This document shows, one piece after another, positions 1 through 9,777 of a stretch of 9,815 nt of DNA. Every line of letters begins with the position of its first letter. The stretch's first letter is position 1. The notes under the pieces are model-generated. The model was given only the letters and a program-made list of their open reading frames with translations, searched no databases and was not told where the DNA came from. The position numbers were made by a program, and so were the translations under genes. The stretch spans positions 1 to 9,815 of the forward strand of contig RFFU01000057.1 of the NCBI GenBank assembly GCA_003697085.1, in the 5' to 3' direction. Source of the stretch: Candidatus Hydrogenedentota bacterium. Lineage in GTDB: Bacteria; UBA8481; J006.

Positions 1-96
1 CCCTCGTCCCAAAAGCCCCCACCCCTCTCCCGCTCCAAGGCACCCTCCCGCGATACCGGCGACACCACCCAAGAATTCCCGGCGTGAAAACTTCAT
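1..96 (-). CDS. N-terminus of a Tat-exported protein (partial, runs off the window)
   Basis: Thirty-two codons are visible, from the ATG at 94-96 to the window edge without a stop. The peptide begins MKFSRREFLGGVAGIAGG, a clear twin-arginine signal (S-R-R-x-F-L at residues 4-9 followed by a Gly/Ala-rich hydrophobic stretch), so the product should be exported folded, as is usual for cofactor-containing proteins. Cys19 follows A-G-G; this is a weak lipobox, so a Tat lipoprotein is possible but not secure. The start is supported by AAGGAGGTG at 108-116, located in the last codons of the DUF362 gene. The spacing from the AGGAGG core is about 13 bases, slightly long. The gap to the upstream stop is only 8 bases, so it belongs to the same operon. 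The mature domain is not in the window. By context it could be the radical SAM member of the AmmeMemoRadiSam set or another redox protein, but nothing visible decides this. Confidence 0.72.
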   Translation of the reverse strand, partial: MKFSRREFLGGVAGIAGGCLGAGEGWGLLGRG

Positions 97-104
97 CGCG
101 AAAC

Positions 105-1103
105 TTACACCTCCTTCAAATCGACCTTCTCGGGAACAACCCCGAGGCCGCGGCGGGCGCAGGTTCCGATGAATCGTGCTGGACGCTTCGCTTCCTCCAA
201 CGTCGGCAGTCCCTTCCGCGCTCGTTCTTCCTCGAGAACACGACGAATTCCCTCGTCTACGGCGACGAGGTCGGTTCCCGCCACGATCCCCCCCCAACGC
301 CAGGCCCAACGGCGTTTGTACCCGGGACCGCCCTCGCATTGCGACAGTGTTCCATCCGCAATCGCCAGTCTCACCTTCCTGCGAAGAAGGTCCAACTCGT
401 TCAGATCGGCAATGAAGGGATCACAGCCGTTTGCGTGGTATTTGTTCGGATTTGAGATCACGCCGTACCAGTTCTTGAGCGACCCGGAGACGCCGGCGAG
501 TTCATGGTCCTTGACGACAGGCATATCGATCAACGCGGTGCACCGCTCCGTGACGATCCGGCTGATCCGTGTTCCGACCCGCCCCGACTCGAAGAGGTTT
601 CCCGAGTACCCGCCCCCTTCCAATCCGTCGGTTCCGACGCAATAATAGCCTTCATCATTTCCGACGTGGAATCCCGCGCGTCGCAATTCGTGGGAATACC
701 TGTCGAAAACCACGATCCGCTCGCGTTTCACCCCGACCTCGTCAAGAAAAGAGATGACGGCGCGCACGAGTTCAGGGCGCGTCGAGAGCCGCCTCCCCGC
801 GATGGTATTGACTTTGATCCCCACCCAATCCTCGGGATCGAAAAGTGTCCGGAAAACGGAGGTCGTGTCCTTCGAGCCGGAGAGTTCCGCCAGCGCCTCG
901 CGAATCAAGATCCGACAGGTTTTTTCATCGAGAGCGCCATCGTCCTTAAAGACCTTCTTCGAGCGAACCCGGATCGAACGGCCGCGAAAATCCGCTTTCG
1001 CCGAGAACTTCTTCCTGGACGCGAAGGCCAGCGCCGCCCGCCCGAACGGCGTCAGCGCCGCCGCGGCCGCGGCTGCGGTTCCGAGAAAACGACGCCGCTT
1101 CAT
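105..1103 (-). CDS. Tat-exported DUF362 domain protein
   Basis: 332 residues from the ATG at 1101-1103. A longer in-frame start exists at 1199 but is rejected: the ATG at 1103 follows GGAAGGGG and starts directly with a Tat signal (MKRRRFLG, then a poly-Ala core ending ALAFA near residue 28). After the signal the protein matches the DUF362 family: D-W-V-G-I-K-V-N-T at about 92-100, and the block MPVVKDHELAGVSGSLKNWYG around 194-214, the family's most conserved part. No CxxCxxC ferredoxin motif is present, although some DUF362 proteins carry one. The biochemical role of the family is not established; it often sits with iron-sulfur or redox partners. The start overlaps the stop of the Memo-AMMECR1 gene as ATGA, so the two are translationally coupled. 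A run of eight G (288-295) lies within the coding sequence but the frame is intact. Confidence 0.9.
   Translation of the reverse strand: MKRRRFLGTAAAAAAALTPFGRAALAFASRKKFSAKADFRGRSIRVRSKKVFKDDGALDEKTCRILIREALAELSGSKDTTSVFRTLFDPEDWVGIKVNTIAGRRLSTRPELVRAVISFLDEVGVKRERIVVFDRYSHELRRAGFHVGNDEGYYCVGTDGLEGGGYSGNLFESGRVGTRISRIVTERCTALIDMPVVKDHELAGVSGSLKNWYGVISNPNKYHANGCDPFIADLNELDLLRRKVRLAIADGTLSQCEGGPGYKRRWAWRWGGIVAGTDLVAVDEGIRRVLEEERARKGLPTLEEAKRPARFIGTCARRGLGVVPEKVDLKEV
108..116 (-). promoter_or_regulatory. Strong Shine-Dalgarno site for the partial Tat-signal gene
   Basis: On the minus strand this reads AAGGAGGTG, a nine-base match to the 3' end of 16S rRNA. It lies within the last codons of the DUF362 reading frame (K-E-V-stop), 11 bases before the ATG at 96. 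Its quality is the main reason for accepting the short edge ORF as real. Confidence 0.7.
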
Positions 1104-2653
1104 AATTCCCCTTCCGAAAAAACTTCCGCCTGGTACGTCAATATCTCCGCACCATGTTTCCAGGCGTCCGGAGGCAGACCGGCCTTGTGCGCCGCGCAAT
1201 TCGAAAGAAACTCCTCGACGCTCCAGCCCGTCTCCGTCGCCACCTGCGGGAGGAAGGTTCCGGACCGAAACCCCTGCCGGACGATGATACCGTCGCGGCC
1301 AAGCACGATCTCTTCCGGCCCGCTCACTTTCCTCGGCGGTGTCAGCACCGAGATCTCGATCTCGATCCCCCCCAACTCCATCCGATCCACCGGCCGAAAC
1401 CGGTTGTCACGAAAGGCCGCGGCGATCGTCATTTCGCGGATCGTCTTCACCAGCGGCTGATCGGGAGTAAATTGGCCGATACAGCCTCGCAGCCGTCCGT
1501 TGTATTTGAGCGTCACGAAGGCGCCTCGGTGCTGCGCAAGATGTCCCGTCGCTGCGGGCGGCGCGGGCTCGTCCAAACCCTGAACCTTCGCCTCGAGCAC
1601 CTCCCGCGCGTATCTCAACAGCGTCCTTCGTTCCTCCGGCGTCAATTTCTCCGCCTCGCCTCCCCTTCCCTCCGCTGGTTGGCTCTGTGGTTCCCGTTCG
1701 CTCATCGCCGTCGCCTCCTTTCCGCTTCCCTTCTCATCGTTTTCCTTCCAGAACACGATCGCCGCGTATCCTACAACGGCCTTCGGATCGCCGTCCGGAG
1801 CCGAGGCCGAGGTCCCGTAACGCACGATTCGCCCGCGGAATCCCCCGGCTTCCTTCATCGCAGCGACCGCCGTCAGAACCGGCATCGCTCCGCACGCCTC
1901 CCCTTCCCCTCTCGAGAAGAGTTCGCGAAGACGGTCGAAATCGAGCGCCGCCGCCGCCGTGATCGTCTTTGTGTCCATCACCTCGGCCACCGCGAGCGGA
2001 TGGTAGTGAGAAAGGTCGGTCGAGACGACCAGCAGTACGTTCTCTTCCGCAAGGATCCTCCCCAGTTCCCGCACGAAGAGTCGCCACGGCGTTCCCGAGA
2101 GGCGCCCCATCAACAAGGGAAGAACGGGGGTCCCCGAAAGCGCCCGTTGCACGAAGGGAAGTTCGTTCTCCGCCGAATGTTCCCCATCGAAGGGGGTGAG
2201 AAAGGCTCGGGAAGAGGGAACCGCATCGAGAATGCGACGGCCGAGTTTCGTTGCAATCCGCGACGTTCCGAGGGGAGTCCGATAGCCTTTGCGATCAAAG
2301 ACGGCGACCCCGGGAAAGGCGTACCGATGTGTGAAACCCAGAACGATCACGGCATCGTATTTTCGCCCCTGTACGGCGCGGAATCCCGCTCCGGCCACGG
2401 GGCCGGAATAGACGTAGCCGGCATGCGGAACGATCAGAACGCGCGGCGTCGAATCGACGGCGACCGCGGGTGATTCCGAAAGGAACCGATCGACCATGCG
2501 GCGCAGCTCGTCTCTTTCGGCGGGGAACCATCGCCCGCCGCCTCGTGCCTCGAAGATTTCTCCCGATTTCGGCGAAATCGATGAAGCCCCACACGCCGCC
2601 AGGAGAAGAATCGCGAGAATGAGGCCGCATCGCCGGCCACTGACATTGATCAC
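1100..2653 (-). CDS. Memo-AMMECR1 fusion lipoprotein (AmmeMemoRadiSam proteins B + A)
   Basis: 517 residues from the GTG at 2651-2653. A longer ATG start at 2710 is possible but would contain a TATAAT promoter-like box and bury the signal peptide; the GTG lies 8 bases after GGGAAAGGGG and gives a compact lipoprotein signal with lipobox L-A-A-C (Cys21). Residues about 60-300 are a Memo domain: PHAGYVYSG (His77), GFTHRY (His109), GEHSAENELPF (His159), TDLSHYHP (His216, His218) and EACGAMPV (Cys254). From what is known of human MEMO1, His77, His109 and Cys254 correspond to its metal ligands. A charged, low-complexity linker (about 303-336) leads to an AMMECR1 domain (about 336-515) with the signature LRGCIGQF near 388-395. 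These are the B and A proteins normally encoded beside a radical SAM enzyme. Memo is related to aromatic-ring-opening dioxygenases; the pathway is unknown. The lipobox predicts that both domains act outside the cytoplasm. It is first in an operon with the DUF362 gene. Confidence 0.9.
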   Translation of the reverse strand: MINVSGRRCGLILAILLLAACGASSISPKSGEIFEARGGGRWFPAERDELRRMVDRFLSESPAVAVDSTPRVLIVPHAGYVYSGPVAGAGFRAVQGRKYDAVIVLGFTHRYAFPGVAVFDRKGYRTPLGTSRIATKLGRRILDAVPSSRAFLTPFDGEHSAENELPFVQRALSGTPVLPLLMGRLSGTPWRLFVRELGRILAEENVLLVVSTDLSHYHPLAVAEVMDTKTITAAAALDFDRLRELFSRGEGEACGAMPVLTAVAAMKEAGGFRGRIVRYGTSASAPDGDPKAVVGYAAIVFWKENDEKGSGKEATAMSEREPQSQPAEGRGGEAEKLTPEERRTLLRYAREVLEAKVQGLDEPAPPAATGHLAQHRGAFVTLKYNGRLRGCIGQFTPDQPLVKTIREMTIAAAFRDNRFRPVDRMELGGIEIEISVLTPPRKVSGPEEIVLGRDGIIVRQGFRSGTFLPQVATETGWSVEEFLSNCAAHKAGLPPDAWKHGAEILTYQAEVFSEGEL

Positions 2654-2661
2654 AGGCTTCA

Positions 2662-2671
2662 CCCCTTTCCC
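2662..2671 (-). promoter_or_regulatory. Shine-Dalgarno site deciding the GTG start of the Memo-AMMECR1 gene
   Basis: Minus strand GGGAAAGGGG, with 8 bases between it and the GTG at 2653. No comparable site precedes the ATG at 2710. Together with the lipoprotein signal that begins at the GTG, this favours the shorter protein. Confidence 0.5.
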
Positions 2672-2713: not shown

Positions 2714-2786
2714 CTTATTTTTTTCCCGGGAGCCTCCAGGTCGTGCGTGCGGAGGATGGAAGGGACCAGGTTACCGGTCAAGGGCT

Positions 2787-2860
2787 AAGAAAAAGGCAAA
2801 AGGCAAAAGGAAAAAGGGAAATGGGAAAAGGGAAGGGAAAAAGGGAAAGGCAAAAGGAAA
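2787..2860 (+). repeat. Polypurine tract
   Basis: Seventy of 74 bases are purines, built from irregular units such as GGCAAAA, GGGAAA and GGAAAAA; the four interruptions are C2797, C2804, T2822 and C2851. It lies between the two operons. In a transcript reading through from the sugar operon it would be an unstructured C/U-rich stretch. It produces apparent ORFs in several frames, none believable. Confidence 0.75.
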
Positions 2861-2875
2861 CGGACGAGTGGAAAA

Positions 2876-2891
2876 CAGACTCTCCCGTCTG
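2876..2891. repeat. Short hairpin within the intergenic repeat block
   Basis: CAGAC and GTCTG arms (2876-2880 and 2887-2891) flank a six-base loop. It directly precedes the first copy of the inverted AGKMP-type repeat and looks like part of the same repeat mosaic. It has no U-tract, so I do not call it a terminator. Confidence 0.35.
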
Positions 2892-2897
2892 CGGTGA

Positions 2898-2928
2898 AAC
2901 CTGGGATCGCAGGCATCTTGCCCGCCGG
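2898..2928. repeat. Left copy of an inverted dispersed repeat (CAGGCATCTTGCC type)
   Basis: The reverse complement of this 31-base stretch matches 3078-3108 at 27 of 31 positions, sharing GGCAAGATGCC and TCCCAGGTT. In one frame the repeat reads AGKMPA(I/L)PG, a string I recognise from spurious ORFs in many bacterial genomes, which marks it as an interspersed non-coding repeat. Confidence 0.65.
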
Positions 2929-2986
2929 AAACGGGCCGAAAGCGCGAAGAACCCAGAGCAACGGTCGGCGGTGCCCCACACACCCA

Positions 2987-3030
2987 GTGTCATTCCGAGG
3001 AGGGAGCAACGCCTGACGAGGAATCCCCCA
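2987..3030. repeat. GTCATTCCGAG...GAGGAATC dispersed intergenic repeat
   Basis: The stretch starts GTGTCATTCCGAGGAGGGAG and ends near GACGAGGAATCCCCC. Inverted arms ATTCC (2992-2996) and GGAAT (3020-3024) enclose it. It resembles the widespread GTCATTCCGAGCGAAGCGAGGAATC family of intergenic repeats. The family assignment comes from memory of the sequence and is not tested here. Confidence 0.5.
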
Positions 3031-3050
3031 CGAGTGCACGATTGGCCTTC

Positions 3051-3070
3051 CCCAGGTTGGAGAACCTGCG
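3051..3070. repeat. Copy 1 of a CCCAGGTTsGAGAACCT stem-loop repeat
   Basis: CCCAGGTTGGAGAACCTGCG matches 3101-3120 at 18 of 20 positions, exactly 50 bases apart. The AGGTT and AACCT arms can pair. It lies downstream of the sugar-operon stop codon on the minus strand. Confidence 0.55.
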
Positions 3071-3077
3071 CACCATT

Positions 3078-3108
3078 CCTGCCGGCAAGATGCCGGCGCT
3101 CCCAGGTT
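3078..3108. repeat. Right copy of the inverted dispersed repeat, with a perfect hairpin
   Basis: Inverted relative to 2898-2928 (27 of 31 positions). Inside it, GCCGGC-AAGAT-GCCGGC (3081-3097) is a perfect 6-bp stem with a 5-base loop. On the minus strand it follows the stop of the 303-residue gene and could slow or end transcription, but there is no U-run. Confidence 0.6.
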
Positions 3109-3120
3109 CGAGAACCTACG
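3101..3120. repeat. Copy 2 of the CCCAGGTTsGAGAACCT repeat, containing a stop codon
   Basis: CCCAGGTTCGAGAACCTACG. AGGTTC and GAACCT form a 6-bp inverted repeat around GA. The minus-strand TAG stop at 3116-3118 falls inside this repeat, so the repeat supplies the last codons or stop of the gene and the first bases downstream. Confidence 0.55.
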
Positions 3121-4027
3121 CCCCCCTTGCTTCTCTCTCCCGGCGAATCACCGCGAACGTCTCCTCGGCGTGCGCCTCCGTCGAGACGCCCACGACGATG
3201 GAATCCACGTTCGGAAAACGGAAGAGATATTCATAGGCTTCCGCGGGCCGCAGGTACCCGCTGGCCAGCGTTCCCATCGCCACGAAGGAAAGCCCCCCTT
3301 CCTTCAAGGCTCGCTCGTTCGACGGACGGTCCGGATTCATCTGATATCCGGCCTTGTTGAACGAGGCCATGATGACCGGTCTCTCGATTCCCCATTCGTG
3401 GAGTCGTCTCAATAAATACGGAAGATTATACGTGCAGTACGCGGCGGCGGCGCCGTTATACCGCCGCGGAATGTACTCCTCGTAGAATTCAAAGATGCCT
3501 CGAAGCCCCAACCCGAGACAGAGGTCGGTCAGAGCCTGATGAAGAAAGACGGCTCTGAGATCCAGCGAGGTGAAGACCGCCATCTCGAGATCGATCAAGG
3601 TCTCGATCATCTTCATCAGATCCCGCCCCAAAACCCCCGCTCCTCCCTTCAGAATTGTTCCGAGTTTCGTCCCAATACCGGCCCCGGAAAGAGAATCCAG
3701 GACGACGTTCGTCAGGCCCTTTTCGTTGGCCATCCGCACATACTTCGCAATGTACGGAAGCACAGGATAGAGCCGGAGACCGTCGGAAATGCCGGGTTCC
3801 GCCCGCAGGGCATCGCAGATCGGGCGCGCCCGCGGATGAGTCGAGAGCATCAGCGCGTCAACGCCGCGCTCCCGAGCGAATCGAATCATCGCCGTCACGT
3901 TTCGAATATCGGAGAACTTCTGATCCCGCGCGGCTCCCTTCTCGTGGGAAAGGTGGTCCACGCCGAAGAAGGGATTGTGTCCCAGGATGATCGGGTCGAG
4001 GGGAGGTCTCGTCGTTTCGTGTTTCAT
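3116..4027 (-). CDS. Conserved TIM-barrel protein, aldo/keto-reductase-like, function unknown
   Basis: 303 residues. The start ATG overlaps the upstream oxidoreductase stop as ATGA and is preceded by GGAGGAG. The alternation of predicted strands and helices, together with the end (S-F-V-A-M-G-T-L-A-S-G-Y-L-R-P near 247-261, then N-V-D-S-I-V-V-G-V-S-T at 273-283), resembles the final barrel strands of aldo/keto reductases, where a similar V-D-S-V-I-V-G motif binds the cofactor phosphate. The N-terminus, LGHNPFFGVDHLSHE at 15-29, is distinctive and not typical of that family, and I cannot see the usual D-Y-K-H catalytic tetrad. There is no signal peptide or membrane segment, so it should be cytosolic. 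As last gene of the sugar operon it may act on a sugar or sugar nucleotide, or as an isomerase-type enzyme; this is inference. The stop codon lies in a dispersed repeat. Confidence 0.82.
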   Translation of the reverse strand: MKHETTRPPLDPIILGHNPFFGVDHLSHEKGAARDQKFSDIRNVTAMIRFARERGVDALMLSTHPRARPICDALRAEPGISDGLRLYPVLPYIAKYVRMANEKGLTNVVLDSLSGAGIGTKLGTILKGGAGVLGRDLMKMIETLIDLEMAVFTSLDLRAVFLHQALTDLCLGLGLRGIFEFYEEYIPRRYNGAAAAYCTYNLPYLLRRLHEWGIERPVIMASFNKAGYQMNPDRPSNERALKEGGLSFVAMGTLASGYLRPAEAYEYLFRFPNVDSIVVGVSTEAHAEETFAVIRREREARGA

Positions 4028-5076
4028 CGTTCTCCTCCGAACGCATCCGGTTCCTTCGGCGCTCCCCGATCCGCGGCCGAGGCATAAATCGCGTCGATGA
4101 GACGATGGACCTTCCAGGCCGCGCGAACATTATTTTCCGGACTTCGCCCCTCCCGGACACACCGCAAAAATTCGATATTCTCCCGGGTGTACTGTCCCCC
4201 GCCGATATCGATCGGGACTCCTTCGAAGAGTTCCGGTATCCGCTCGATCGTCCACCCTCGCGACAACCCCGCGGCCTCTTTCTCCAAAAAGACCTTCACG
4301 ATATCGTCCGTGACGATGAGCGTACCGTCCGTTCCGTGCACGTCAAAGCGGGTCTCGACAAGGCGATGGCCTCGCACGCTCCAGGAAGAATCGAGCCAGC
4401 CCGTGACTCCGCTTTTCATCTCAAAGATCACGTGAAGGAAATCCTCGGTCTCACCGGAATAAAAATTGTTCTGGCGCGCGTTGACAAACGCCGCCTCGCC
4501 GAAATACCACGTCACGAGGTCGAGGGCATGGGAGCAAGGCCCCATAATCAGCCCGCCGCCGGATTTCTTCTTGTCATATCGCCAGCCCTTCCCTTTCCGG
4601 AAGAGTTGCGAGACATACATCGTAACCTGAAATTGAATCACCTTCCCCAGAACGCCCGATTCCAGCAACGACTTCGCTCGCCGGAAGGTCGGGAGGTACC
4701 GCATCATCCAAGCCACCATATTCGGGACGGAGCGGCGCTCGAGCGCATCGACGAGCCGCCGCGCCTCGGAGGCCGTGGTGGACAGCGGTTTCTCGACGAA
4801 GGTGGAAACTCCGTGTTCCACACAAGCGATCCCCATATCCACGTGTTGGAAGACAGGGGTTGCAATGTAGGCGGCATCGAGATCTTCCTTTTTGAGCATC
4901 TCACGATAATCCGAATAAACTCTCACATCGGGCTTGAGCGTTTTCAAGGCGCGCGCGACCAGGTCGGACGGTTCCGCTACTGCGGCCAAGGTCGATCCTT
5001 CCAACCCGTTCACGATTCCCCCGTGAAGCATTCCCATCTTACCGAATCCAATGATTCCGATCCTCAAATCCGCCAT
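4024..5076 (-). CDS. Gfo/Idh/MocA family NAD(P)-dependent sugar oxidoreductase
   Basis: 350 residues, the family's normal length. The N-terminal Rossmann fold carries G-F-G-K-M-G at 10-15, and the family's E-K-P motif is at 95-97 (its lysine contacts substrate and cofactor). The C-terminal domain contains GGGLIMGPCSHALD at 173-186, with His183 and Asp186 at the usual catalytic positions. Members oxidise or reduce a hydroxyl or keto group of sugars, inositols or sugar nucleotides; the substrate cannot be read from sequence. The start is supported by GGAGGAG about 9 bases upstream, which overlaps the end of the glycosyltransferase gene (3 bases between stop and start). It is cytosolic, with no signal or membrane segment. 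Its place beside a nucleotide-sugar dehydrogenase suggests that it processes a 3-keto or uronic-acid nucleotide sugar; that is inference. Confidence 0.9.
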   Translation of the reverse strand: MADLRIGIIGFGKMGMLHGGIVNGLEGSTLAAVAEPSDLVARALKTLKPDVRVYSDYREMLKKEDLDAAYIATPVFQHVDMGIACVEHGVSTFVEKPLSTTASEARRLVDALERRSVPNMVAWMMRYLPTFRRAKSLLESGVLGKVIQFQVTMYVSQLFRKGKGWRYDKKKSGGGLIMGPCSHALDLVTWYFGEAAFVNARQNNFYSGETEDFLHVIFEMKSGVTGWLDSSWSVRGHRLVETRFDVHGTDGTLIVTDDIVKVFLEKEAAGLSRGWTIERIPELFEGVPIDIGGGQYTRENIEFLRCVREGRSPENNVRAAWKVHRLIDAIYASAADRGAPKEPDAFGGER

Positions 5077-5079
5077 CCG

Positions 5080-6045
5080 TCATCTCCTCCGGGAATCGTG
5101 CACCGACTTGTCCACCATATACTTCACGTCCTTGAGAAGTTGGAGAACGAATCCGAAGAAGAAGAGTTGCGTTCCCATCGTGACCAGCAATGTAACCAGA
5201 AGGAGGGCGGGCAGTCGTTTGAAGAGCGCCGCGATCTGAAACCCCTCCTGCCAGAAGACAAAGCCGAAATAACCGAACGCGGAAAGCACGAAGATGATCC
5301 CGAGGGAATAAAGCCACTTCAGATGGGCCTTTGACCGGAGAATCAGGATCGGAAGCGTGTAGAAGATGTACGTCGGAATCGACGCGACGACACGCGAGGA
5401 GCCGGCGGCGCGCTTACGCCAGACGCTCGGAATCTCCTTGATGCGGAACCCCTTCTGGTCGGCGTCGATGATCGTCTCCTGTACATAGGTGTGCGTGCCC
5501 AGCATCTCGAGTTCCTCCACGACCTCGGGCTTCATCGCCCGGATTCCACCGTGGGAATCGGTCAGCGGGAGTCCGGTGAAGGCTCTGAGCATTGCGGAGA
5601 GCACGATGGTGCCGAACCGATTGATCAGCGGGTAGCGATATTGAACGAGCCCGGGACGGCAGAAGCGCGATGCCAAGACCAGGTCCGCCTGATCATTCGC
5701 TACCACTTCGAGGAAACGCGGGATCTCCTCCGGATCGGTCTGGCCGTCGGCGTCATACATCATAATGAAGTCGGGATGGTGATCGAGCGCGGCCTTCAGA
5801 CCGACGTACATCGCGTACCCCAGCCCTTTCCCTCCCCCGTTGACGATCACGGCGCCCTTCTCCCGAGCGATGCGGCGCGTGCCGTCCTTCGAATCGTCGG
5901 AGAGAAGAATGATCGGTTTGGGAAGGTCGTGCTTCTCGAAACTCCCGAAAACTTCCTCCAGAGTCTCCGCGATTCGCTGCTCCTCGTTTCGGGTCGGAAT
6001 GACGACACAGATCCGCTTCTCTTTCAACTTCTCCGCCAGTGTCAT
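5080..6045 (-). CDS. GT2 glycosyltransferase, polyprenyl-phosphate type with two C-terminal membrane helices
   Basis: 321 residues from the ATG at 6043-6045. The frame is open to an ATG at 6180, but the inner start has GGAGG 10 bases upstream, overlaps the dehydrogenase stop as ATGA and begins the family fold immediately. The GT-A domain shows VVIPTRNEE (14-22), SDDSKDGT (49-56), the metal-binding D-A-D (98-100) in YDADGQTDPEE, and ASRF (125-128). Two hydrophobic segments near 244-264 and 279-304 anchor it in the inner membrane. This layout matches the dolichyl/undecaprenyl-phosphate mannosyl- and glucosyltransferases, which load a sugar from a nucleotide donor onto a lipid carrier on the cytoplasmic face. 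The sugar is unknown. The downstream oxidoreductase follows after 3 bases. Its neighbours point to cell-envelope glycan synthesis or glycosylation of exported molecules. Confidence 0.9.
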   Translation of the reverse strand: MTLAEKLKEKRICVVIPTRNEEQRIAETLEEVFGSFEKHDLPKPIILLSDDSKDGTRRIAREKGAVIVNGGGKGLGYAMYVGLKAALDHHPDFIMMYDADGQTDPEEIPRFLEVVANDQADLVLASRFCRPGLVQYRYPLINRFGTIVLSAMLRAFTGLPLTDSHGGIRAMKPEVVEELEMLGTHTYVQETIIDADQKGFRIKEIPSVWRKRAAGSSRVVASIPTYIFYTLPILILRSKAHLKWLYSLGIIFVLSAFGYFGFVFWQEGFQIAALFKRLPALLLVTLLVTMGTQLFFFGFVLQLLKDVKYMVDKSVHDSRRR

Positions 6046-7343
6046 TCTGGGGGAACCTCCACGAGCGAATGGTATTGCCTCGACGAGCGCAACCGCGCCC
6101 CGACCGAATGCCACTTCAGGTTGAGGACAGGTTTTCCGGACTCGAGGAGCAACCGCTCCGTCTCCTCCGATATCCGCCACGGCCCCAATACGATAACGTC
6201 CGCCTTCTCGATGAGTTCCGCTTCCGACCCCACCGGTTCGACGCCATCGGCCGATCCCAACGTCAGACGAGCCAGGGCGGCGGGATGGTCGAAAACATAC
6301 TGGAGCATCTTGCGGCTGTAACTGCGCCGCCGGGACGAGATTCTCTCGATTCCCGCCAAAACGGGACTCTCCCGCAGATCATCGGTCCCCGGCTTGAAGG
6401 TGATGCCGAAATATCCCACGCTTCCCGGTTCCCGTTCGAGAATCCATTTCACCATTTGAAGAATCATCTCGTCGTTGCTCTTCAGGATCGCCTCGAAGAG
6501 CATCGGATCGATCCCGGCCGCCCGGGAAAAGGAAACAAGCGCTCTCAATTCCTTTGGAAGACAGGACCCGCCGAAGGCGAAACCGGGCCGCATATAATAC
6601 GACGAGAGATTGAGTTTTCGGTCCTCACAGAAGACCTCCATTACCTCCGCGGCATCGACGCCGCGCGACTTGAGAATCAGAGCCAGTTCGTTCGTAAAAG
6701 CGATCTTGAGCGCGTGGAAGGCATTGTTCGCGTATTTGATCGCCTCGGCCGAACGGATCGCAATCCGTTTCACCGGTACCTTCACCTCGGGCAACAGCCG
6801 GGAAACGACTTCGATCGGAAACACCTCCGCGGCGCCGATCACATTGAGGCTCGGCTCGAAGAAATCTTTTACAGCCGTCCCCTCGCGCAGGAACTCCGGA
6901 TAAAACGCCACGCGGGAGAAAGGATCGGGATCCCGAGGAAGAAGCGGAATGAGCCGTTCTTCCAACGTTCCCGGAGGCGAAGTGCTTCGTACCAAGACGA
7001 TATGATCCGGTTTTTCCGCCAAGACCTCGGCCATCCGAGCCATCGTGCTTTCGACATACTTCGTCTCGACACCTCCGTCCGGGCGGCTCGGTGTTCCGAC
7101 ACAGATGAGGGAAAGATCGGTTTCCTCGACGGCCTTTCGCGACTCGGTCGTCGCACGAATCCGATCCGTCCCGGTAACCCCCAACTCCTCCAACCCCGGC
7201 TCGTAGATCGTCCACCGGCCGTCGTTGACCGCCTCGACTTTCTCCTCAACCACATCCACACCGAGCACGGTGTGTCCCTGCTTCGCCAGGCAAGCCGCCG
7301 TGACGCAACCAACGTAACCCAATCCGAAAACCGAGACTCTCAT
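6042..7343 (-). CDS. UDP-glucose/GDP-mannose 6-dehydrogenase family protein, closest in motif to GDP-mannose dehydrogenase
   Basis: 433 residues, full length. It carries the NAD-binding G-L-G-Y-V-G (7-12), CVGTPSRPDGG (81-91), YPEFLREGTAV (148-158), IKYANNAFHA (202-211), the catalytic Cys261 in FAFGGSCLPKELRAL (255-269), and TFKPGTDDLRESP (315-327). The enzyme oxidises the C6 hydroxyl of a hexose nucleotide in two NAD-dependent steps to the uronic acid. The strings MRPGFAFGGSCLPK and YPEFLREGTAVKDFFEP look more like AlgD-type GDP-mannose dehydrogenases than UDP-glucose ones, but the substrate is not proven. The start at the conserved MRVSVFGLGYVG is certain by family, although no good Shine-Dalgarno site precedes it. 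It lies 52 bases after the aconitase stop and overlaps the glycosyltransferase start by 4 bases, so it opens the sugar cluster. Confidence 0.92.
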   Translation of the reverse strand: MRVSVFGLGYVGCVTAACLAKQGHTVLGVDVVEEKVEAVNDGRWTIYEPGLEELGVTGTDRIRATTESRKAVEETDLSLICVGTPSRPDGGVETKYVESTMARMAEVLAEKPDHIVLVRSTSPPGTLEERLIPLLPRDPDPFSRVAFYPEFLREGTAVKDFFEPSLNVIGAAEVFPIEVVSRLLPEVKVPVKRIAIRSAEAIKYANNAFHALKIAFTNELALILKSRGVDAAEVMEVFCEDRKLNLSSYYMRPGFAFGGSCLPKELRALVSFSRAAGIDPMLFEAILKSNDEMILQMVKWILEREPGSVGYFGITFKPGTDDLRESPVLAGIERISSRRRSYSRKMLQYVFDHPAALARLTLGSADGVEPVGSEAELIEKADVIVLGPWRISEETERLLLESGKPVLNLKWHSVGARLRSSRQYHSLVEVPPE

Positions 7344-7395
7344 CAGGACGACATCCCGGTTTTCTTCGATCCGAGGAGTCTCTTCTCTCTCCGAC

Positions 7396-9642
7396 TCACG
7401 CGTCGCTCGCGCGGATCGCGTTCAACGCCGACCCCTCGAAGAACCAGCGGACTTGGCTCTCCGTCAGAGTATGCCGGGCGAGAACCGTCTCTTCGCTGCC
7501 GTCGGAATGGCGGACGAGGACGGAGACCTCGGAGCCCGGAGCAAGGTTCTCGAGTCCGCGAATCGCAATCACATCGTCCTCTCGAAACGTCTCGTAATCC
7601 GCGGGATTCTTGAACCAGAGAGGAAGGATCCCCTGTTTCTTCAGATTCGTCTCGTGAATCCTCGCGAACGACTTTACGATCACGGCTCGGCATCCCAGAT
7701 GCCGGGGCTCCATCGCCGCATGTTCCCGCGAGGATCCTTCTCCGTAGTTTTCATCTCCCACAACGATCCACCCGCGGCCCGAGGCCTTCCATTTCCGGGC
7801 CAGCGCCGGAAACGGTTTTCCATGACTCTGCCCCACCTCCTCGGTGAAGGCATTCACCGCCCCCAGGAACATGTTGTCGCTGATCTTGTCCAGATGCCCG
7901 CGGTAGCGCAACCAGGGACCGGCCTGCGAAATATGGTCCGTCGTGCACTTTCCCTTCGCCTTGACCAGGATCGAGAGATTCTCGAAATCCTCGGGAATCC
8001 GCCATTTCGGGAACGGCTCCAAAAGCGCCAACCTCTCGCTCCCTGGATCGACCACGACCTCGACCGAGGCTCCTTTTTCATCAGGAGGAAGGAAACCGGT
8101 TTCGTCGATCACAAAACCGCGTTCGGGTATCTCCGGCCCTTCCGGGGGTTTAAAGCAGAACTCCCCGCCGTCGGGTTTTGGAACCGCATCATTCAAGGGA
8201 TTGAAATCGAAGGTCCCCGCAAAGGCATACGCCGTGACGATCTCCGGCGAACCGATGAAGGAATGAGTGGCCGGATTTCCATCGTTGCGCTTCTTGAAAT
8301 TTCTGTTGTAGGAGGTCACGATCGAATTCGGCGTTCCTTCCGGCACATCGTCGCGTTTCCATTGTCCGATGCAGGGACCGCACGCGTTCGCCAAGACCAC
8401 GGCTCCCGCTTCCTTGAAGAGGTCCAAAAGGCCGTCTCGGGCGATCGTCTTGTGTATCTGCTCGGAACCGGGAGTCACCAAAAGCGGTATCCTCGTTTTC
8501 ATCCCGGCGGAAACGGCCTGCCGGACGATATGCGCCGCCCGGGAAAGATCCTCGTAGGACGAGTTCGTGCAGGACCCGATCAGGGCCGCGGATATCTCGA
8601 CCGGCCACCCGTTCTCCCGCGCATCCGCTCCCATGCGCGAGACGGGATGCGCAAGATCGGGGGTATGTGGGCCGACGAGATGCGGTTCGAGAGAGTCGAG
8701 ATCGATCTCGATGATCTCGTCGAAGTACCGTTCGGGATCCTTATCGACCTCCGAATCCGCTCTGAGAAACTCGATGTATTCCTCCGCGAGTTCCACGACG
8801 GCCTCGCGTTCCGTCGCCGCAAGATAACGCGCCTGGCGTTCATCGTAGGGAAAGATCGAGGTCGTTGCGCCGATCTCCGCGCCCATATTCGTGATGGTGC
8901 ATTTTCCGGTCGCCGAAATCGACGCCGTTCCCGGCCCGAAATACTCGACGATCTTCCCCGTCCCCCCCTTGACCGTCAGCGTCTCAGCAACCTTCAAAAT
9001 GACATCCTTCGGCGAGGTCCACCCGCTCAACTTTCCCTTGAGATAGACTCCGATCAACCGGGGATTCGCCACGGCCCACGGCATCCCGACCATTACGTCG
9101 ACGGCATCCGCGCCGCCCACGCCGACCGCCACCATCCCCATCCCTCCGGCATTGGGGGTGTGCGAATCCGTCCCGATCATCATCCCTCCGGGAAAGGCGT
9201 ACTTCTCGAGAACAACCTGATGGATGATCCCCGCTCCCGGCCCCCAGAATCCCATACCGTACTTTTGAGCCGCTGAGCGGAGGAAACGATAGACTTCGCC
9301 GTTGATATCCTGGGCGGAAGCAAGATCCTCTTCCGCTCCGCGCCGCGCCAGAATCAAATGATCACAGTGAACGGTCGTGGGAACCGCCACCGAGGAACGA
9401 CCGGCTGTCATAAACTGTAGAATCGCCATCTGCGCCGTGGCGTCCTGCATCGCGACTCGGTCCGGCCGGAGAAGAAGTTCCGAGCGCCCGCGTGTCAGAT
9501 CCTGCCCCTCGGGATCGTCCAGATGCGAAAAGAGCACCTTCTCCGCATAGGTCATCGGGCGGCCCAGACGTTCTCTTATGATCGGAATCGTTTTTTTCAT
9601 ATGTTCATAGACGCGCCGAGTCAATTCGATATCGAATTCCAT
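7396..9642 (-). CDS. Aconitate hydratase, mitochondrial-like type
   Basis: 748 residues, the usual length for the mitochondrial-type enzyme and shorter than the bacterial AcnA and AcnB types. It isomerises citrate to isocitrate in the TCA cycle in the cytosol, using a [4Fe-4S] cluster. Cluster ligands are Cys358 (GSCTNSSYED), Cys421 and Cys424 (ANACGPCIGQW). Active-site blocks are all present: VHCDHL (91-96), GTDSHTPNAGGMG (157-169), GAEIGATTSIFPYD (254-267), SYNRNF (444-449) with Arg452, and GEGSSREHAAMEPRH (634-648) with the catalytic Ser637 and Arg639. The start is preceded by AGAGGTGG. The gene is intact. It stands first in the minus-strand series, with the sugar genes 52 bases downstream and no visible terminator between, so cotranscription is possible but functionally unexplained. 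Confidence 0.95.
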   Translation of the reverse strand: MEFDIELTRRVYEHMKKTIPIIRERLGRPMTYAEKVLFSHLDDPEGQDLTRGRSELLLRPDRVAMQDATAQMAILQFMTAGRSSVAVPTTVHCDHLILARRGAEEDLASAQDINGEVYRFLRSAAQKYGMGFWGPGAGIIHQVVLEKYAFPGGMMIGTDSHTPNAGGMGMVAVGVGGADAVDVMVGMPWAVANPRLIGVYLKGKLSGWTSPKDVILKVAETLTVKGGTGKIVEYFGPGTASISATGKCTITNMGAEIGATTSIFPYDERQARYLAATEREAVVELAEEYIEFLRADSEVDKDPERYFDEIIEIDLDSLEPHLVGPHTPDLAHPVSRMGADARENGWPVEISAALIGSCTNSSYEDLSRAAHIVRQAVSAGMKTRIPLLVTPGSEQIHKTIARDGLLDLFKEAGAVVLANACGPCIGQWKRDDVPEGTPNSIVTSYNRNFKKRNDGNPATHSFIGSPEIVTAYAFAGTFDFNPLNDAVPKPDGGEFCFKPPEGPEIPERGFVIDETGFLPPDEKGASVEVVVDPGSERLALLEPFPKWRIPEDFENLSILVKAKGKCTTDHISQAGPWLRYRGHLDKISDNMFLGAVNAFTEEVGQSHGKPFPALARKWKASGRGWIVVGDENYGEGSSREHAAMEPRHLGCRAVIVKSFARIHETNLKKQGILPLWFKNPADYETFREDDVIAIRGLENLAPGSEVSVLVRHSDGSEETVLARHTLTESQVRWFFEGSALNAIRASDA

Positions 9643-9709: not shown

Positions 9710-9724
9710 AAAAGGTGTCATTCT
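9710..9724. repeat. Copy 2 of the 15-base motif shared by both operon leaders
   Basis: Identical to 2699-2713 on the plus strand and in the same orientation relative to the downstream gene. It ends 67 bases before the aconitase ATG. On the minus strand a run of eight G (9699-9706) separates it from the CATAAT box. Confidence 0.55.
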
Positions 9725-9777
9725 TCCCATTTGTCAATTTCAGGTTTCACGGGAAGGAAGGATTCCTCCAACGCCGG

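Follow-up and report, generated by a model that had tools for sequence, protein, structure and literature searches.

Where does an AmmeMemoRadiSam system act when the proteins that constitute it carry export signals? Conservation of Memo and AMMECR1 extends from archaea to humans, and the system to which they belong is widespread but poorly understood. The question is raised by a stretch of 9,815 nucleotides (the window), which is the complete contig C87 (GenBank RFFU01000057.1) of a 3.2 Mb Candidatus Hydrogenedentota bacterium genome in 145 contigs (GCA_003697085.1). On its minus strand lie three closely packed genes, encoding a Memo-AMMECR1 fusion, a DUF362 protein and a truncated third protein, the last found here to be the radical S-adenosylmethionine (SAM) enzyme of the same system. 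A sequence-only reading of this DNA had claimed that all three genes carry export signals, a lipobox on the fusion and twin-arginine signals on the other two products, and this claim was borne out. On the evidence of these sequences, we estimate a probability of about 0.6 that what is encoded here is an AmmeMemoRadiSam system working outside the cytoplasm.

The fusion corresponds to AmmeMemoRadiSam proteins B and A (1100..2662, minus strand) and comprises 520 amino acids from a GTG start at 2662. The start assumed in the sequence-only reading, 2653, is an alternative in-frame GTG; position 2662 is used here, and the signal is retained with either. The N-terminus reads MKPVINVSGRRCGLILAILLLAAC|G, with the lipobox LAAC (LILAILLLAAC) ending a signal peptide (2591..2662, minus strand) that is placed likewise in most homologous fusions. 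The protein scores 205.8 bits against TIGR04336 (Memo; cut-off 26) and 177 bits against TIGR04335 (AMMECR1; cut-off 99), and Pfam also assigns both domains to it. Residues H80, H112 and C257 are invariant among nine fusions aligned over their full length, and are positioned as H49, H81 and C244, the iron and copper ligands of human MEMO1 (PMC11081632). Human MEMO1 shares the Memo domain and these ligands but is neither exported nor fused to AMMECR1, whereas the window fusion is a predicted lipoprotein. A search of its own genome found this fusion to be the sole strong Memo/AMMECR1 match.

The DUF362 protein (105..1103, minus strand; 332 amino acids; PF04015, 81 bits) begins with MKRRRFLGTAAAAAAALTPFGRAALAF (1023..1103, minus strand), in which a twin-arginine motif is followed by 16 uncharged residues. 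The third gene, starting at position 96, begins with MKFSRREFLGGVAGIAGGC, again a twin-arginine motif followed by 16 uncharged residues; only its 5′ end, including this signal of the twin-arginine translocation (Tat) type, lies in the window (1..96, minus strand). The first 36 bases of the window are identical to the last 36 of contig C32, and the reading frame is open across the join, continuing on G000:C32 (L121, 3330-4541, minus strand). The joined product of 423 amino acids scores 356.6 bits against TIGR04337, the AmmeMemoRadiSam radical SAM enzyme (cut-off 220), and contains the CxxxCxxC motif as CNVECRFC. Because the frame runs through the join with its Tat signal, all three members of the triad carry export signals. 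A profile search of the contigs detected two TIGR04337 members in this genome, one of which is the joined gene. The second (L122, G000:C109, 7195-8268, minus strand) has no export signal, although the sole strong Memo/AMMECR1 match is the exported fusion.

Could translation begin downstream of these signals? The starts that are accompanied by ribosome-binding sites were found to sit upstream of the signals. The stop codon of the fusion overlaps the DUF362 ATG (TTATGA), with GGAAGGGG just upstream of that ATG. The site AAGGAGGTG lies with the DUF362 stop codon TAA at 105..116 (minus strand), just 5′ of the radical SAM ATG; the radical SAM gene is predicted to be translationally coupled to the DUF362 gene through this site, which falls inside the DUF362 end. 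Between the ATG at 96 and the conserved domain, the only remaining start-type codons are TTG, which makes it improbable that translation begins further along and bypasses the signal. Short downstream starts of this kind were rejected in the window because of the upstream ribosome-binding sites, the gene overlaps and the TTG-only codons.

Export calls were made by motif and hydrophobicity rules that together form a permissive classifier. A Tat substrate is marked by an RR motif, a residue at +4 that is hydrophobic, and a hydrophobic region with no charge over at least 13 residues. SRREFLG and KRRRFLG, with 16 uncharged residues each, show these features, and TatC is present in the genome (202.7 bits). 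None of 21 cytosolic control proteins was called as exported, and 37 Tat calls were made among 606 other open reading frames. A chance origin of the signals is countered by these two results and by the 70 of 110 radical SAM family members with no signal in the census described below. The three window proteins are, on these grounds, very probably exported. Their signals argue against the cytosolic location customarily assumed for the system.

Is this an idiosyncrasy of one genome? From the radical SAM members above the cut-off in 251 diverse genomes, 110 loci were sampled as a census, without reference to Memo. An export signal was observed in 40 of the 110 enzymes and none in the other 70, which mostly start directly at the domain. 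Separately, 80 fusion loci were fetched from named genomes of Omnitrophota, Bacteroidota, Acidobacteriota, Aminicenantota, Thermodesulfobacteriota and others. Most of these fusions carry a lipobox or Sec-type (general secretion) signal, and of 37 loci with an exported radical SAM enzyme, 36 also have a signal on the Memo protein. One genome contains two tandem Memo-AMMECR1 fusions (L014, G059:C1:918313-921275). Many radical SAM enzymes next to fusions have canonical Tat signals (SRREFLN, DRRFFLK, NRREFLK), and the signal type varies by lineage, with a KR variant in Bacteroidota and Sec-like signals in Omnitrophota. Signals are present in homologues of many phyla. On a tree of 166 sequences, the export trait changes 11 times, compared with a mean of 55 (minimum 45) after shuffling. 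The clade that includes the window's enzyme (support 96) contains 32 exported members out of 33, and CxxxCxxC is retained in all 77 exported enzymes of the tree set. Radical SAM enzymes with predicted export make up a large share of the family and group by clade.

The N-terminal segments might instead be membrane anchors or vestigial signals, with the domains acting at the cytoplasmic face. Sec-like hydrophobic segments in place of Tat motifs in some lineages (L048, L054, L060), and radical SAM enzymes of Prevotellaceae without signals, are consistent with such an arrangement. The charges flanking the segments, by the positive-inside rule, nevertheless predict an N-in/C-out orientation in 59 cases versus 10, canonical RR motifs persist (31 of the 33 members of the window enzyme's clade are called Tat), and the lipoboxes of the partner fusion imply a location at the outer face of the membrane. 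We consider a cytoplasmic-face location quite improbable.

If the enzyme is exported, does anything else accompany it? Clustering of neighbouring genes brought to light a membrane protein that contains a spermidine-synthase-like domain, here termed MFS-SpeE after the major facilitator superfamily (MFS). In the census, its gene is adjacent to 16 of 40 exported and 2 of 70 non-exported radical SAM loci (p = 8e-7), and in the fusion-anchored set to 25 of 37 and 2 of 20, respectively. The genomes were then searched with a profile that, as a caveat to the counts, was built from copies beside exported enzymes, in genomes other than those tested. Of 20 genomes that encode an exported enzyme without MFS-SpeE beside it, 17 were found to have a copy elsewhere (305-900 bits; full length in 15), whereas none was detected in 34 genomes whose enzymes are all non-exported, where no score exceeded 190 bits (p = 2e-11 versus 17/20), nor in 20 genomes without the radical SAM family. 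Overall, MFS-SpeE is present in 33 of the 36 genomes that encode an exported enzyme and in 2 of the 35 that do not. Exported radical SAM enzymes and MFS-SpeE co-occur almost obligately. The window's genome follows this rule, with the MFS-SpeE gene on contig C67 (G000:C67, L147, 7526-13332) in a four-gene cluster together with a DUF6599 lipoprotein, a second Tat-type DUF362 protein (Npun_F2552-like) and a NapH-NapG-like polyferredoxin fusion. In Acidobacteriota, this gene set lies next to the genes for the Memo-AMMECR1 fusion and the radical SAM enzyme.

An AlphaFold2 model of MFS-SpeE (predicted local distance difference test score, pLDDT, 84; predicted template modelling score 0.89) was found to match the MFS proteins SV2A (Z 21.7) and SV2B (Z 20.7) through its transmembrane halves over 351 residues, and spermidine synthase (Z 27.8; 3anx, a complex with 5′-methylthioadenosine, MTA) through the domain at about 245-515. 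The first catalytic Asp of the DxxD motif is replaced in 30 of 31 MFS-SpeE proteins, and the nucleotide-binding motif is mostly retained. In MFS proteins, the central loop lies on the cytoplasmic side. Given the MFS fold, the central SpeE domain that would face the cytoplasm and the retained nucleotide-binding motif, it is a reasonable inference from the model that MFS-SpeE serves to transport or sense SAM or a nucleoside akin to it. The protein has a SpeE-fold domain and MFS-like transmembrane halves in common with spermidine synthase and fused MFS/spermidine synthase (NF037959, PRK03612). It differs from them in lacking the first catalytic Asp, in scoring far under the polyamine aminopropyltransferase cut-offs and in forming a subfamily that goes with exported radical SAM enzymes.

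The three proteins could nonetheless be exported with MFS-SpeE playing no part in the system, the latter being a polyamine or nucleoside exporter or a membrane-bound aminopropyl-type transferase, and the co-occurrence arising because both systems mark one way of life, for example anaerobic metabolism of the envelope. In favour of this, known SpeE-fold enzymes bind decarboxylated SAM and MTA, complexes of which are among the fold matches, and independent contrasts are too few. The distribution across genomes (33 of 36 versus 2 of 35), often within the same operon, and the loss of the catalytic Asp in 30 of 31 proteins speak against this explanation, which we regard as possible, if doubtful.

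The DUF362 protein was modelled with AlphaFold2 at a pLDDT of 89. Its fold is shared with malate and lactate racemases (Z 16.6 to 14; best root-mean-square deviation 3.1, with 209 residues aligned), and DUF362 and DUF2088 (LarA) belong to one Pfam clan, CL0471 (PMC11770544). A sequence search against solved structures gave only chance-level matches, the fold search being the informative one. Compared with LarA, a lactate/malate racemase with a nickel-pincer nucleotide, DUF362 is shorter, has 16-18% identity and is predicted to be exported by Tat; invariant K and H residues are evident in its alignment. In the census, a DUF362 gene adjoins 7 of 40 exported and 0 of 70 non-exported radical SAM loci (p = 6e-4).

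Where would electrons come from? The C67 polyferredoxin joins a NapH-like membrane part and a NapG-like ferredoxin part, resembling the NapH/NapG quinol dehydrogenase ferredoxins, and its gene lies beside that of MFS-SpeE; its parts are fused, unlike in NapH/NapG, and no nitrate reductase was seen nearby. Polyferredoxin was detected in 8 of 20 genomes with an exported enzyme and 4 of 34 controls (p = 0.04), and was therefore rejected as an obligate electron donor and is taken to be optional. A DsbD-like protein is adjacent to 6 of 40 exported and 1 of 70 non-exported loci in the census (p = 0.009). In the exported loci L048, L054, L060 and L079 of Omnitrophota, a DsbD_2/CcdA-like membrane protein adjoins the fusion, and the radical SAM signals are Sec-like rather than Tat. 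In L084 (3546-4766), a protein combining FMN_bind (RnfG-like) with a NapH-like polyferredoxin is encoded beside a Thermodesulfovibrio lipoprotein fusion.

An extracytoplasmic AmmeMemoRadiSam system would most likely work as follows. The Tat pathway would export the radical SAM enzyme, folded and with its [4Fe-4S] cluster, and the DUF362 protein, while the metal-binding Memo-AMMECR1 protein would be lipid-anchored beside them. Together these proteins may modify an envelope molecule, the substrate probably being an envelope lipid, quinone, polymer or cofactor. More weakly, MFS-SpeE may carry SAM, or a nucleoside derived from SAM, across the membrane or recycle the products of SAM, and in some lineages electrons may come from membrane redox modules: NapHG-like here, DsbD-like in Omnitrophota and RnfG/NapH-like in L084. 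That radical SAM chemistry with transported SAM takes place outside the cytoplasm is a tentative proposal. Equally speculative is the fuller scheme in which a widespread radical SAM enzyme acts outside with lipid-anchored Memo-AMMECR1 and exported LarA-fold DUF362 partners, and a dedicated MFS transporter, with its SpeE-fold insert as ligand-binding module, delivers SAM or a SAM-derived nucleoside. The sequence-only reading had suggested an envelope-located redox or cofactor reaction; the envelope location is supported by sequence and withstood both tests that this reading had set itself, on the signals of homologues and on translation starts, and the proposed reaction can be narrowed to that of a radical SAM-type system outside the cytoplasm, served by its own MFS-type protein.

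The radical SAM chemistry might instead be completed in the cytoplasm, on DUF362, the fusion or a cofactor, before co-export through Tat as a folded complex, with no radical reaction taking place outside. What Tat transports, single proteins or complexes, is folded and already loaded with cofactor; SAM and reductant are cytoplasmic, and a DUF362 protein with a Tat signal is co-encoded, as such a scheme would have it. It is at odds with the many loci in which the radical SAM enzyme has an export signal of its own, some of these signals being Sec-like (Sec passes unfolded proteins), and it leaves the near-obligate MFS-SpeE partner unexplained. Cytoplasmic completion appears unlikely.

Several points weigh against an extracytoplasmic AmmeMemoRadiSam system. 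The join of C87 and C32 is supported by 36 bases only, and some single export calls are doubtful (e.g., L110, L240, L244), the classifier being permissive. In Prevotellaceae loci (L099, L100, L101, L116, L118, L120), the fusion is a lipoprotein, the radical SAM enzyme lacks a signal and is shorter at its C-terminus, and no gene for MFS-SpeE lies in the vicinity; the combination looks like a mixed form. The association with polyferredoxin is weak. Export is so stable on the 166-sequence tree that phylogenetically independent contrasts provide too few pairs to test the MFS-SpeE association. Radical SAM enzymes require low-potential electrons, which quinol-linked modules may not give, and we know of no description of free SAM outside the cytoplasm.

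Upstream on the same strand of the window (3116-9642, minus strand) lie genes for a 303-amino-acid protein without a match, a Gfo/Idh/MocA oxidoreductase and a family 2 glycosyltransferase, as well as a nucleotide-sugar dehydrogenase and an aconitase assigned by reading; these genes have no evident connection with the operon. A dispersed intergenic repeat at 2776-3128, with a minor match at 9710-9741 and about 80 matches genome-wide (72-95% identity), includes a AGGAAAAGGG-rich stretch and a segment reading GGGGGATTCCTCGTCAGGCGTTGCTCCCTCCTCGGAATGACACTGGGTG on the minus strand.

What distinguishes this locus from AmmeMemoRadiSam systems already known? The same three families (TIGR04335, TIGR04336, TIGR04337) are present, all above curated cut-offs and with catalytic and metal motifs retained. 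Usual radical SAM members have no N-terminal extension (70 of 110 in the census; the C109 paralogue), whereas the window triad has export signals throughout, a co-encoded Tat-type DUF362 protein and a dedicated MFS-SpeE partner. Burroughs and colleagues reportedly treated Memo-Ammecr1 systems in 2019. A search of open-access literature turned up no description of an exported triad accompanied by MFS-SpeE, though the 2019 work may mention signal peptides; nor was anything found there on periplasmic, exported or secreted radical SAM enzymes or on fused MFS spermidine synthase. The triad is already known; what appears to be new is its exported form with a dedicated MFS-SpeE partner.

With about one-third of the sampled bacterial radical SAM partners carrying export signals, the search for the substrate shifts to the cell envelope, and the range of candidates narrows. 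An exported version would require the cofactor SAM outside the cytoplasm, and MFS-SpeE could supply it; among possible SAM transporters of a new type, this near-obligate partner is a specific candidate. If true, radical chemistry outside the cytoplasm would break the assumption that radical SAM enzymes are cytoplasmic.

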